Assembly: GCA_026705925.1 (NCBI GenBank)
Contig: JAPOZT010000027.1
Span: 1 to 64,000 of the forward strand
Origin: Gemmatimonadota bacterium
Lineage (GTDB): Bacteria > JAAXHH01
Direction: 5' to 3'
DNA length: 64,000 nt
A program made the position numbers and the translations under genes. Positions 43,193 through 63,419 of the stretch are shown piece by piece. Numbering within the stretch: position 1 is the stretch's first letter; each line of letters starts with the position of its first letter. Below the pieces are notes generated by a model, which saw only the letters and a list, made by a program, of their open reading frames with translations, had not been told where the DNA came from and searched no databases.

Positions 43193-43759
43193 GTGTCTTA
43201 TAATCCCATTGATACCCACGCCACAGTTCGCGAATTCGAAGCCGCGGGTATCGAGACGAAGCAGGCGGAAGCCATCGTCAAGGCGATGACGTGGAGCCGG
43301 AACGACCTGGTGACGAAGACGGATCTTTCTGGATTCGCGACGAAGGCAGACCTGGAGCGATTTGCCACAAAGGAAGATCTGACCGGGTTCGCAACGAAGG
43401 CAGATCTGGAGCGATTCGCGACCAAAGAGGATCTGGAGGAACTGAAAACTCGATTGGATGCTCTAAGCGCGAAGATGGAGCGATTCGCCACCAAGGAAGA
43501 TTTGAAGCGATTTGCGACGAAGGAGGATCTGGAGGAACTTAAATCGCGTGTTGATTCGTTAAGTGCGAAGATGGAGCTTTTCGTTACGAAGGAAGAATCG
43601 AAGCGATTTGCCACGAAGGATGATCTGGTTGTTTTGAGGGCCGAAATGGCCGCGATGAAATCGGACCTTGTAAAGCAGATCAGCAGCGCCGTCAACAAGA
43701 TGATGATATGTATGATCAGCATGTCCGCGCTGATCGTGGGTTTGTTGAAATACCTTTGA
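43193..43759 (+). CDS. Coiled-coil repeat protein with C-terminal membrane anchor (DUF1640-like)
   Basis: 188 residues from GTG 43193, AGGAG five bases upstream. The middle consists of FATKxDLxx nine-residue repeats (at least six), alternating with the longer unit LEELKxRxDxLSAKM, predicting a long coiled coil. It ends in a single transmembrane segment (MMICMISMSALIVGLLKYL). The shape resembles DUF1640/CCDC90-type proteins. Repeat-copy DNA is nearly identical, so the array can expand or contract. Function unknown. Confidence 0.75.
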   Translation: MSYNPIDTHATVREFEAAGIETKQAEAIVKAMTWSRNDLVTKTDLSGFATKADLERFATKEDLTGFATKADLERFATKEDLEELKTRLDALSAKMERFATKEDLKRFATKEDLEELKSRVDSLSAKMELFVTKEESKRFATKDDLVVLRAEMAAMKSDLVKQISSAVNKMMICMISMSALIVGLLKYL

Positions 43760-49268: not shown

Positions 49269-51104
49269 CTACACCCGTACCGTCAGCCCGTCGTGGAGGG
49301 CTGTGCGGTAGGCTTTAAGGGCTGGAACGAAGCCCATGAGGAACCCGGCCGTCACCACGGCGCCCATGAAGAGCAGCTCGACGGAGCCGGGGGGGCGTAT
49401 AGGGATGAAGAGCCCTACCTGCGATTCGACGAGGGACTGTCCGATTGAGAGCAATACATACACCAGGGCCAATCCGGCGAGGGCTCCTGCCGCGGCCAGG
49501 CAGGCCGATTCGAGCACCAGCAGGGCGACGATCCGGTTGGGACCGGCTCCGACGGCGCGCAGGATCGCCATCTCCCGGCGGCGCTCGTTGAGCGACGTGT
49601 AGAGCGAGACCAACATGCCCAGCAGCCCTACCAATACAACGAAGATGGTCACCAGCCGCAGGCCGGTCTCGGCGTAACCCAGGCTCCGCCACATCTCGTT
49701 CAGGGCGACTCCGGGGATCACGGCCATCATCGGTTCGTCTTCGAAGTCGTTGATCTCGCGCTGAAGCATGAGTACATCCCGGCGGTCGGTCGTACCCACG
49801 AAGAACGAGGTCACCTGTGTAACTTCGACATCTTCAATCGAGAGATCCGCTTCGCCGTGTGCGTGCCCGTCGTCCGCGGCTGCCGTCTCTGACTCGTCGT
49901 CGTGCGCGTGGTCGTCGTCCATCGGGGCCGCCTCGGCCTCCTCCTCGTGGTCGTGCCCGTCGTCCGCGGCTGCCGTCTCTGACTCGTCGTCGTGCTCATG
50001 GTCGTCGTCCATCGGGGCCGCCTCGGCCTCCTCCTCGTGGTCGTGTCCGTCGTCCTCAGCAGTCGTCTCCGTCTCCTCCTCGTGTGCGTGTCCGTCGTCC
50101 GCGACAGCTATCTCTTCCGCTTCATCGTGGACGTGCGCGTCGTCCGCGACAGCTATCTCTTCCGCTTCATCGTGGACGTGCGCGTCGTCTGCGGCAGCCG
50201 CCTCGGCCTCCTCCTCGTGTGCGTGCCCGTCGTCTACCGGGGCCGCTTGCGCTTCCTCCCCGTGGTCGTGTCCGTCGTCCGCGGATGCCACTTCAGCCTC
50301 TTCGTCATGTACGTGGTCATCGTCTGCGGCAGCCGCCTCGGCCTCCTCCTCGTGTGTGTGCCCGTCTTCCACCGGGGCCGACTCTTCCGCTTCCTCGTGC
50401 ACATGACCGTCGTCCGCCGGGGCCTCCGCATCATCGTGGACGTGCCCATCGTCCGACGACGCACCTTCCTCCAGATGGATAGCCTCCATACCCTCGAGGG
50501 TCACGTAGAGAGCGCGGTCCACGGGGGTGAATGTCTTGGCGAGAACGCCCACTACCGTAAAAGGCATGTGGTCGTGGACCAGGAAGCCCACCTCGCCGAT
50601 CCCGTGCGTCACCGCGATCTCGTCGCCCAGCTCGTAGTTCAACTCTTCCGCCACGTCCGCGCCCAGGGTCACGTCGTACAAGCCTTCGCTCGCCCGGCCT
50701 TCAGCCAGTGCGATTTCCTGGCCTCCGCGGTAGCGGTAGCGGTGATAGAAGTCGTCATTCGTTCCGATGACCCGGAATCCTCGGTGGCTGTCCCCCAGGC
50801 TGTAGGGGATGGTCCATTCGACGGCCGGATGATCCGCCCACTGCCGGTAGGCCTCCCACGAAACGTTCTCCGTCGGCGCGCCCATGCCGAAGACCGAATA
50901 CAGCAGCAACTGGATCGTGCCGCCCTTGGTACCCACGATCAGGTCGGTCTGGCTGATGGTGTTGGAGAAGCTCTCGCGCATGCCCACACGAACGTTCTCC
51001 ACGCCGATCAGGAGGGCGACGCTGAGGGCGATGGAGCCCACTGTAAGCGAGGTGCTGAAGGCACGGTTGCGGAGCGACTTGAGCGCGAGGTCCAAAACCA
51101 GCAT
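49269..51104 (-). CDS. MacB/FtsX-type ABC permease with a large His/Asp/Glu-rich insertion
   Basis: 611 residues. N-terminal membrane helix (LTVGSIALSVALLIGVE), a MacB-like periplasmic domain, and three C-terminal helices with the FtsX motif (NERRREMAILRAVGAGPNRI). Residues about 216-418 are an inserted repeat region with 14 copies of D-x-H-x-H-[DEG] at 14-16 residue intervals, e.g. DDGHVHDDAEAPADDGHVHE. Such runs bind zinc or other divalent metals. It overlaps the ATPase gene by one base. With the DUF3299 gene next door it resembles the zinc-regulated Pseudomonas PA4063-PA4066 cluster; zinc involvement is inferred, not shown. Confidence 0.9.
   Translation of the reverse strand: MLVLDLALKSLRNRAFSTSLTVGSIALSVALLIGVENVRVGMRESFSNTISQTDLIVGTKGGTIQLLLYSVFGMGAPTENVSWEAYRQWADHPAVEWTIPYSLGDSHRGFRVIGTNDDFYHRYRYRGGQEIALAEGRASEGLYDVTLGADVAEELNYELGDEIAVTHGIGEVGFLVHDHMPFTVVGVLAKTFTPVDRALYVTLEGMEAIHLEEGASSDDGHVHDDAEAPADDGHVHEEAEESAPVEDGHTHEEEAEAAAADDDHVHDEEAEVASADDGHDHGEEAQAAPVDDGHAHEEEAEAAAADDAHVHDEAEEIAVADDAHVHDEAEEIAVADDGHAHEEETETTAEDDGHDHEEEAEAAPMDDDHEHDDESETAAADDGHDHEEEAEAAPMDDDHAHDDESETAAADDGHAHGEADLSIEDVEVTQVTSFFVGTTDRRDVLMLQREINDFEDEPMMAVIPGVALNEMWRSLGYAETGLRLVTIFVVLVGLLGMLVSLYTSLNERRREMAILRAVGAGPNRIVALLVLESACLAAAGALAGLALVYVLLSIGQSLVESQVGLFIPIRPPGSVELLFMGAVVTAGFLMGFVPALKAYRTALHDGLTVRV
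49850..50456. repeat. Coding tandem repeats of the His-rich insertion
   Basis: Units of about 48 nt, several nearly identical; two blocks of about 100 nt (near 49860-50040) and two 48-nt blocks (near 50100-50190) differ by a few bases. This signals recent unequal exchange within the gene. Confidence 0.8.
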
Positions 51105-51787
51105 CAGAGCACCGCCTTGTTGACGTCAGGGAGCGAGATGGTACGGGAGAACATGCCTTCCAGGGCACGGTCGTGGCTCACGAACACCAGCGTTGCTCCG
51201 GCGCGCTCGCACTCCTGGAAGAGCAGTTCGAGGAAGTCCTCGCGGCGGTCGAAGTCAAGAGAGGAGGTCGGCTCATCAGCGACGATGAGCTCCGGCGCCC
51301 CAATGAGCGCGCGACAGGCCGCCACCCGCTGTTGCTGGCCCACCGAGAGTTCGGTCACCGGCTTGTTCAGCAGATCGCCGATATGGAGATGACCGGCCAG
51401 CAGCGCGGCGGACTCCTTCACGCCCGCGCCGTCCAGCCGGGCCCGGCGCCCCGCGTGCATGCGCACGGGCAGGATGATGTTGTCGAGCACCGACAGGTAG
51501 GGGATGAGGTTGAACATCTGGAAGACATAACCGATGTGCTCCGCCCGGAAGGCGTCCCGCTGCGCGCCTGAAAGTGAGCCGAGGTCCTCGCCCAGCACCT
51601 TGACCTCGCCCTCGTTCGCTTCCAGGACCCCCGCCAGCACACCGAGCAGCGTGGTCTTGCCGCTGCCGCTGGGACCGAACAGGAACGCGCGCGTCCCCCG
51701 TTCGAGGGTCAGCTCGGGAATGTCCAGTACCCAGGGTCCGCCGCCGTAACGGAAGCGAAGGTTTCGGATGTCGATGGCTAGGCTCAT
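51104..51787 (-). CDS. LolD/MacB-type ABC ATPase
   Basis: 227 residues. Walker A GPSGSGKTT, signature ELSVGQQQRVAACRAL (LSVGQ in place of LSGGQ), Walker B LIVADEPTSSLD and a switch His in FVSHDRALE. Typical of the MacB/LolD/FtsE family. Partner of the permease that follows, with which it shares one base. Confidence 0.93.
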   Translation of the reverse strand: MSLAIDIRNLRFRYGGGPWVLDIPELTLERGTRAFLFGPSGSGKTTLLGVLAGVLEANEGEVKVLGEDLGSLSGAQRDAFRAEHIGYVFQMFNLIPYLSVLDNIILPVRMHAGRRARLDGAGVKESAALLAGHLHIGDLLNKPVTELSVGQQQRVAACRALIGAPELIVADEPTSSLDFDRREDFLELLFQECERAGATLVFVSHDRALEGMFSRTISLPDVNKAVL

Positions 51788-51946
51788 CTATGACATATTC
51801 CTGTGTAACGTAGCTCCACAAAAACCGCGCGTCCTCGGCTCAAGCGAGTGCGCGCACTGAGTGGAAGCCGGCGTCCTGGTCGTGTCGTATGGGCGTCCAC
51901 GTCGTACGTCTGCCGCGCCGCGCCATACAGGAGACCGCATCTCGGA

Positions 51947-52474
51947 TCAGTACTCGTACGGATAGACCCGCTTTCCGGTGATGGTGAAGCCTACGTAGCC
52001 GTACACGCTCTTGGTCATCTCGATCTTGATAACGCCTTCGACCCACACCGGGTTCCACCCGTTCAAAAACGCCCATTTGTCCTTTTCCATCTCGATGTAG
52101 ATAAGCTGGTTAGGCGGGGGCGGCGGCGTGTGGATGCAGGCGCCGACATAGGGAACGAGGAGGAACTCCGTTACCGAGGACGCCCAGTCTTCAAGCGGTA
52201 CCGCAAATCCGGGGACCTTGACGAGTTTGCCGTCGAGTTCCGCCAACTCCTTGCCCGGCTTGCCGGTGCGGTAGTCGAGGCTGGCCAGGAGGTGCCATCC
52301 CACCTTGACGGGCTCGTTGGCCGGTGCGTCCGGCGGTGCGTCCGGCGGTGCGCCGACCGGAGGCCCCGGAGCAGGCTTCGGAGAGGCCTTCGGGGATTCG
52401 CGCACAACGCTGAGGGACACCACGACCAGCAATGCGACGGAAATAAAGAGTAGTTTGCGGCTGACGCCGATCAT
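51947..52474 (-). CDS. DUF3299 exported protein
   Basis: 175 residues from ATG 52474; the longer in-frame start at 52624 would overlap the divergent gene. N-terminal signal anchor (LLFISVALLVVVSLSVV), a Pro/Ala-rich linker, then the DUF3299 core: KVPGFAVPLEDWASSVTEFLLVPYVGACIHTPPPPPNQ, with its conserved Cys-x-His. In Pseudomonas DUF3299 genes sit beside zinc-regulated ABC genes, as here. Upstream of the ATPase on the same strand. Confidence 0.85.
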   Translation of the reverse strand: MIGVSRKLLFISVALLVVVSLSVVRESPKASPKPAPGPPVGAPPDAPPDAPANEPVKVGWHLLASLDYRTGKPGKELAELDGKLVKVPGFAVPLEDWASSVTEFLLVPYVGACIHTPPPPPNQLIYIEMEKDKWAFLNGWNPVWVEGVIKIEMTKSVYGYVGFTITGKRVYPYEY

Positions 52475-52578
52475 TGTAAAACCCCGGTGGTGAGGTCTTC
52501 CGTTCGATATATATAGCATTCGGCCAACTGTTGGCAATATAAATGTATATGCACCGTTCAACTCGTTTACTGTTTGCA

Positions 52579-63281: not shown

Positions 63282-63326
63282 GGGAGAATTCAGGGGAGGC
63301 GGCCGACCGGCCAAGTCGCGCCACAG

Positions 63327-63419
63327 CTCATCGGTTGTTCCGCGCTTTGGCCGGCCGCTCATCGGTCTTTCCGCGCTTTGGCCGGCCGCTCATCGGTCGT
63401 TCCGCGCTTTGGCCGGCCG
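63327..63419. repeat. Three 31-bp tandem repeats between corrinoid protein and activase
   Basis: Exactly three 31-bp units (63327-63357, 63358-63388, 63389-63419) sharing CTCATCGGT and GGCCGGCCG ends, differing only in a few bases near unit position 10. They end at the corrinoid protein stop codon. Each unit on the minus strand has GACCGATGAG and the palindrome GGCCGGCC. Confidence 0.85.

Follow-up and report, generated by a model that had tools for sequence, protein, structure and literature searches.

What would a transporter of the zinc-related Zrg family do with a histidine-rich repeat built into its own permease? The question is raised by three consecutive minus-strand genes, encoding in this order a DUF3299 protein, an ABC (ATP-binding cassette) ATPase and a type VII (MacB/FtsX) permease, in a stretch of 64,000 nucleotides (hereafter the window: positions 1 to 64,000 of contig JAPOZT010000027.1, assembly GCA_026705925.1, recorded as a Gemmatimonadota bacterium). 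An earlier note on this DNA had reported fourteen D-x-H-x-H-[DEG] repeats in the periplasmic part of the FtsX-like permease and had suggested that it may be an undescribed form of a zinc-handling MacB/LolD system, proposing a search for a Zur box. Following the Vibrio naming, in which ZrgA is PF10986, ZrgB the permease, ZrgC the ATPase and ZrgE the DUF3299 protein, our best reading is that the zinc-collecting role of ZrgA would have shifted into the permease. We give a probability of roughly 0.55 to the locus encoding a Zrg-type zinc transporter (ZrgB, ZrgC and ZrgE) that works without ZrgA and has the permease's own disordered arm as its metal collector.

The repeat count proved exact, as 14 D-x-H-x-H-[DEG] units lie in one periplasmic loop, starting at permease residues 219, 232, 247 and so on to 412, with a first interval of 13 residues and twelve further intervals of 15. 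Residues 215-425 around this array, which we call the belt, contain 28 His, 44 Asp and 45 Glu. The 220-residue loop has 14 HxH motifs; when its own residues were shuffled 10,000 times, the mean was 3.4 and no shuffle reached 14. The belt DNA is itself a tandem repeat (49856-50417, period 45/90, 72% matches), so that the array probably grew by unit duplication, and the permease frame is open over all 611 codons without inner stop. In an AlphaFold model (50 rows), most ten-residue blocks of the core have a predicted local distance difference test score (pLDDT) of 76-97 (whole-model mean 72.3, predicted template modelling score 0.62), and the belt, placed between helix 203-216 and strand 433-438 of the periplasmic domain, is modelled as disordered, with pLDDT below 50 for nearly all of residues 230-415. 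Foldseek puts LolCDE and MacB first among solved folds, and the heme exporter HrtBA appears from rank 19 onwards; the TM-scores, obtained with the loop included in the model, are low (at most 0.42 by query and 0.52 by target). A profile search at 1e-10 returned no solved structure of this permease family. The idea that the belt is the counterpart of the LolC hook was dropped: with the hook at the position that we take it to hold in LolC, a low-confidence hhalign alignment matches LolC residues 167-179 to the vicinity of permease residues 168-180, which are clearly N-terminal to the belt. In LolE, the hook is P171-P182 (PMC11671585).

All nine complete permeases of the genus have a long His-rich loop with 2 to 23 HxH, and their flanks are 88-99% identical to those of the window permease, while the HxH count of the loop differs widely. 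A tenth permease (L020; L and G numbers are our handles for loci and genomes) leaves its contig within the belt, and three genus loci that stop short of the permease (L016, L026 and L027) were left out of the counts.

Over its N-terminal part, the permease shares 54.5% identity with a copy from a Pseudomonas plasmid (L039) and 51-53% with copies from Sulfitobacter, Aeromonas and Phaeobacter; over its C-terminal part, identity to these four proteobacterial ZrgB-type permeases is 43-48%. The ATPase is 44-54% identical to the ATPases of the four plasmid-record clusters. Among the plasmid matches listed, Ruegeria is next at 45% and the remainder lie at 26-33%. The three annotated plasmid-record clusters are ordered DUF2796 (ZrgA, PF10986) - ATPase - permease - DUF3299, and in Phaeobacter a Fur-family gene stands ahead of ZrgA. 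From permease identity and cluster neighbours it follows that the window holds Zrg-type components: judged by its sequences, the locus is of the ZrgBCE type, part of the system that is called ZrgABCDE in Vibrio and that corresponds to PA4063-PA4066 of Pseudomonas. It has a ZrgB-type permease, a separate adjoining ABC ATPase and a DUF3299 (ZrgE) protein in the cluster, as the earlier note had described, including the kinship with PA4063-PA4066. ZrgA is the missing member, with no PF10986 match over the cut-off in the window genome or in 11 genus mates (0/12); the one sub-threshold match, in G011, has an E-value of 4.8e-4 and 21.6 bits against a cut-off of 27.4.

Assignment to the related families MacB and LolCDE is not supported. 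ATPase and permease are two genes instead of the single chain of MacB, and with the NCBIfam MacB model (cut-off 966 bits) the ATPase scores 102.5 and the permease 18.2. Among the eight window proteins scanned with Pfam, no match to an adaptor family, as expected for MacA, occurred. For LolCDE, the LolD model reaches 140 bits (cut-off 307.75) and LolCE 37.5 (cut-off 362.45). The ATPase is FtsE/YbbA/DevA/LolD-like and stays under the cut-off of every NCBIfam model among the matches listed (25 of 181 families).

Compared with ZrgABCDE of Vibrio cholerae and V. parahaemolyticus, the window system clusters homologues of the permease, the ATPase and the DUF3299 protein, but ZrgA is missing, the permease has the belt, the DUF3299 gene comes first instead of last, and no Zur box was found. 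PA4063-PA4066 of Pseudomonas aeruginosa contains the same three families, but there the His-rich part is a separate ZrgA-family protein and here it is part of the permease; the loop of the Pseudomonas plasmid permease (L039), unlike the belt, is 29 residues long without HxH. The term "undescribed form" therefore holds for the variant, with its His-rich element in cis, and not for the system, which is a variant of the described Zrg. What is new is the position of this element within the permease and, as a rule, the lack of ZrgA; among the results listed in our literature searches, which covered open-licence PMC papers, none had a title or abstract that dealt with a His-rich loop of such a permease.

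To relate belts to ZrgA we compared 245 permeases, each from a different genome or plasmid record so far as the handles show, and counted ZrgA as adjacent when a match lay within 3.5 kb of the permease on a stretch reaching 1.2 kb or more to each side. At least three HxH occur in the loop of 30 permeases; ZrgA is adjacent in 0 of the 26 that could be determined (four more could not) and absent from the genome in 26 of the 30. With fewer than three HxH, ZrgA is adjacent in 117/205 and present in the genome in 164/214. Set at a single HxH, the division gives an adjacent ZrgA in 1/66 (L319) and one in the genome in 21/75, against 116/165 and 147/169 for loops without HxH. In the closest clade (47 permeases), ZrgA is found in 0/21 genomes with loops above 40 residues and in 21/26 with short loops; L166, a member of the belt clade with a 30-residue loop reading SDDEHDHEHPVD, has ZrgA in its genome. 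In a set of 25 genomes, ZrgA is absent from all four with belts (L045, L046, L047, L051), from five with short loops of 1-2 HxH (L054, L056, L060, L087, L103) and also from those of L059 (broken permease) and L065 (no HxH), and it is present in 14, eleven of them without HxH (L048, L050, L052, L053, L057, L058, L062, L084, L105, L111, L118), two with a single HTH (L049, L055) and one with two HxH (L119). The earlier note had regarded repeat-less homologues in the same surroundings and without a link to metals as evidence against its proposal; homologues with similar neighbours and no repeats do exist (L048, L050, L053 and others), but with ZrgA elsewhere in the genome, so that they turn into support. 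The largest belt by motif count lies in L333 (G852, from the phylum of L103), with 32 HxH and 72 His in 229 residues and no ZrgA in the genome.

On a quick IQ-TREE phylogeny the belt state (at least three HxH) changes 11 times, which parsimony rooted on L124 divides into 8 gains and 3 losses. Belts were thus gained about eight times in the same loop, in Gemmatimonadota-side genomes (those from the phylum of G059, the genome of L045; the window genus included), Alphaproteobacteria and Verrucomicrobiota. In five gains ZrgA is absent from every genome; a sixth is a large clade of 22, all without ZrgA except L166, which dropped under three HxH; in the remaining two (L322/L325/L327 and L332) ZrgA is present in the genome. 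The units differ by gain: the window clade has DDGHxHDEE, G575 and G515 have EHEHEHEH, and G852 has GHDHGxHEGHE, all in the same loop. Per 1000 residues, HxH numbers 24.8 in all loops, 5.9 in beltless loops and 0.43 in the rest of the protein, which makes it about 58-fold denser in loops than in the core. A codon test on 98 units picked by their His, in which 33 of 196 His codons are CAT and the others CAC, is circular for the amino acids and was replaced there by 113 units of 21 permeases picked by their spacers: His stands at the first place in 99/113 and at the second in 101/113, several of the 15 exceptions being landmarks slipped by one residue, and the middle place varies (A, V, D, H, T, G or E). 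Chemically alike, separately built belts that share one site argue for selection on metal binding.

Within the permease tree, the genus is nested in a belt-bearing and otherwise Gemmatimonadota-side clade (Shimodaira-Hasegawa-like approximate likelihood ratio support 96), which suggests, with moderate support, that the three-gene module was transferred into the window genus. The genus is split in two places, L024 and L025 standing with L166 (84) and the others with L164 (86), and deeper branches are weak (16, 74). Its nearest relatives outside the genus, in records titled Gemmatimonadales, Gemmatimonadetes and the like, are mixed, with belts in L045, L047 and L051 and 30-residue loops in L048, L050, L053 and others; several of these bins presumably come from sponges, to judge by their names.

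As to how the system might work, the disordered His/Asp/Glu arm from the periplasmic-domain loop would be a metal-collecting element, in which each DxHxH[DE] unit could weakly bind one exchangeable ion of zinc or a similar metal, and the arm would therefore concentrate periplasmic metal on the transporter; ATP-powered movement of the periplasmic domains would then drive the metal onward. We infer zinc as the metal, its binding by the arm and the transport, taken here as import in line with the reading of Vibrio Zrg. According to PMC9820375, V. cholerae needs ZrgA, through the operon, to grow when zinc is limited, and the zinc sites that the unstructured His loop of ZrgA contributes are mostly weak; PMC9817125 reports that zinc limitation raises the zrgABCDE genes of V. 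parahaemolyticus 76- to 206-fold. The Anglerases Ang-1 and Ang-2 are likewise periplasmic parts that catch metal and are fused to a permease (PMC12537917), but these are a separate domain with N-terminal His on HupE/UreJ-2, in contrast to a disordered repeat in the loop of a type VII ABC permease. LolCDE-LolA, FtsEX-EnvC, MacAB-TolC and YbbAP-TesA share the fold and work with a periplasmic partner (PMC7668044, PMC12646458); their partner is separate, whereas in the window the partner element is apparently built in, behind the LolC hook region in the low-confidence alignment. In zinc uptake with ZnuA, the His-rich loop lies in the binding protein (PMC8561739) and not, as here, in the permease. 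Only tentatively would we go further and propose that, on several independent occasions, a disordered poly-His arm from one loop of a type VII permease has taken the place of the soluble metal-binding protein in a zinc ABC system, as a substrate trap in cis, and that the three-gene module has crossed phyla; the system could then be an importer or a metal extractor.

Several observations weigh against a ZrgA-free zinc transporter. Belt and ZrgA occur together in four genomes (G534, G584, G633, G515, with ZrgA elsewhere in the genome), and the genome of L119, with its two HxH, has ZrgA as well. Of the beltless genomes, 50/214 also lack it, so that ZrgA is dispensable for other reasons or was missed in incomplete genomes, those reached through loci having no completeness figures. 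Over 10 independent pairs on supported branches, ZrgA goes opposite to the belt (at least three HxH) in 4.2, the same way in 0.1 and does not differ in 5.7 (median p 0.125). When adjacent ZrgA is scored instead, 1.6 of eight pairs are opposite and 0.0 same (median p 0.5), and an earlier run on 178 rows had the same direction (median p 0.5). The direction of the opposition is thus steady, and the kinship-corrected test is not significant, with too few informative pairs for it to be. DUF3299 also stands beside beltless permeases that are only about 30% identical (L028, L029) and is therefore alone no mark of zinc. The His loop of V. cholerae ZrgA is described as not essential (PMC9820375), so a His arm alone need not replace the folded zinc sites of ZrgA. 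Zur control, for which the earlier note proposed a search, found no support: with up to two mismatches allowed, the Zur-like pattern GTTATnnnATAAC matches the whole window 6 times, where 6.85 are expected. No match lies from the DUF3299 start (52474) to 53230, and the nearest is 757 bases beyond that start, inside the divergent gene. A Fur-family gene was found in 5/9 genus genomes searched, one of these genes in the window genome, and none in G003, G004, G005 and G007, three of which are 96-98% complete. Finally, Pro/Met-rich arms fill the same permease loop in many Gemmatimonadota-side genomes, and the loop therefore tolerates arms of other kinds; a hand count of 34 such loops (36 residues or more, below 8% His) gave 23 with a single HxH and 11 without. 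Arms such as (PGAEPPPGTPMVMPG)n occur in many of the Gemmatimonadota-side loci L206-L253, and a good part of them end in EHDHGDD or similar.

This tolerance, the DNA tandem repeat, the fast-varying lengths and the non-significant corrected test are what one would expect if the belt were low-complexity sequence that had expanded neutrally in a surface loop and had nothing to do with metal, the ZrgA pattern following kinship. We consider this improbable, as about eight gains have His in common but not the unit sequence, His is retained at both places of the spacer-defined units around a free middle position and is written with both CAC and CAT, and HxH is strongly concentrated in the loops. A metal role of another kind is a buffer or sensor: the belt would load in a metal-rich periplasm and slow or stop the transporter, or simply store zinc. 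The weak sites of PA4063 have been proposed as a concentration sensor and the loaded His loop of ZnuA as an inhibitor of transport (PMC8561739), and the wide range of unit numbers within one genus is expected of a capacity trait, but by itself a buffer gives no account of belts going with a missing ZrgA, and we regard it as unlikely.

The direction of transport is contested in the literature. The homologous ATPase and permease of P. aeruginosa are read as a MacB-type exporter of pyochelin-cobalt (PMC11481552), which also counts against a zinc importer, and the Vibrio authors read their system as importing zinc (PMC9820375, PMC9817125), so that the published readings disagree. Export of a metallophore or metal complex has been proposed for PA4064/PA4065, and MacB and HrtBA export substrates of their own; if the window system did likewise, the belt would strip or capture metal on the periplasmic side. 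Its fold is that of exporters and extractors (LolCDE, MacB, HrtBA); with the Vibrio data read as import, export is improbable as well. We retain the zinc transporter with its collector in cis as the best reading.

The features of the locus are given in Table 1. The DUF3299 protein consists of a hydrophobic N-terminal segment, a Pro-rich linker and the DUF3299 domain with GACIHTPPPPPNQ; its match 4hsp is named as PA4066 in PMC8561739. The ATPase stop overlaps the permease ATG by one base, and the permease has MacB_PCD at residues 18-208 and FtsX at 484-601. The promoter-like sequence was spotted by eye and is absent from the list of the automatic scan. An inverted repeat in its spacer, GCCAAnnnTTGGC, was set aside: of the seven loci that keep the promoter-like sequence, four have a perfect copy and three an imperfect one, and the other four loci have none. 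In L045, L048 and L187 the module lies directly behind an M20-type amidohydrolase-like gene (Pfam M20_dimer; L045 was the one scanned), but in the genus it faces a DUF4382 gene; control of the module has therefore probably been rewired between the genus and its relatives.

Table 1. Positions in the window of the Zrg-type genes, the belt and the upstream region.
Feature	Positions	Strand	Evidence
ZrgE-like DUF3299 protein, 175 residues	51947..52474	-	PF11736 E 8.7e-34; phmmer to 4hsp E 7.1e-24
ZrgC-like ABC ATPase, 227 residues	51104..51787	-	PF00005 E 1.5e-28
ZrgB-like type VII (MacB/FtsX) permease, 611 residues	49269..51104	-	MacB_PCD and FtsX above Pfam cut-offs
His/Asp/Glu belt, 14 DxHxH[DEG] units in periplasmic-domain loop	49854..50450	-	unit count; pLDDT; DNA tandem repeat
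Upstream region, TTGCCA-N16-TATATA promoter-like sequence	52475..52542	-	alignment read by eye; 7/11 genus loci

DUF3299 is present in the window genome (3.77 Mb in 38 contigs) and its 11 genus mates (12/12), and it was not found in four other genomes of the phylum, two of them 97-99% complete (16 searched in all). One genus member (L027 / L015, G002:C32) has a second, cut DUF3299 copy at a contig edge. The linker contains a 12-bp DNA repeat (52322-52352), and in G011 the linker is expanded to a long VDAPPVGAPP-like array (L016 11050-11769). The divergent DUF4382 gene, a lactonase gene and the next gene are retained in 10/12 genus loci compared. Downstream of the permease, a membrane protein and a winged-helix (HTH_34) regulator form a pair (49088-48173, minus strand) present in 6/12 genus loci compared; a promoter-like TTGACA-17-TATATT (49130-49102, minus strand) precedes the pair, which looks like a separate unit. 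Two more tandem arrays lie in the window at 43388-43628 and 63326-63419 (96 bp x 2.5 and 31 bp x 3).

For the comparison, at least 586 permease pattern matches were obtained in genome contigs, 572 of these being confirmed relatives, and the best 80 were analysed. As these 80 loci were the ones that best matched a query with a belt in its first row, belts are perhaps over-represented. The sample was extended by 91 Gemmatimonadota-side genomes (88 with complete permease) and by 67 others, of which one is from the phylum of L103 (titled Verrucomicrobiales) and 66 belong to the alphaproteobacterial order of Marinicauda, Maricaulales in the NCBI taxonomy. Where ZrgA lies inside the locus, its state was taken from a profile that we built on the seeds L039-L042, three of which were checked with Pfam; for the remaining rows it comes from genome-wide PF10986 searches, which covered 91/99 new genomes, eight with fragmentary or distant permeases being left out. 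Excluded from the counts were L046 (same genome as L023), L020, L059, L079, L204, L252 and L253 (permease incomplete), L254-L262 (fragments or distant, about 30% identical) and G502, G591 and G651 (three weak matches of 71).

Natural ZrgA-less versions with countable, likely binding units make both the movement of zinc by a MacB-like four-helix permease and the role of ZrgA open to experiment. If our reading is true, the growth of repeats may carry a metal-binding function from one partner protein to another; provided that the tree is right, a small transport module would also have crossed phyla.

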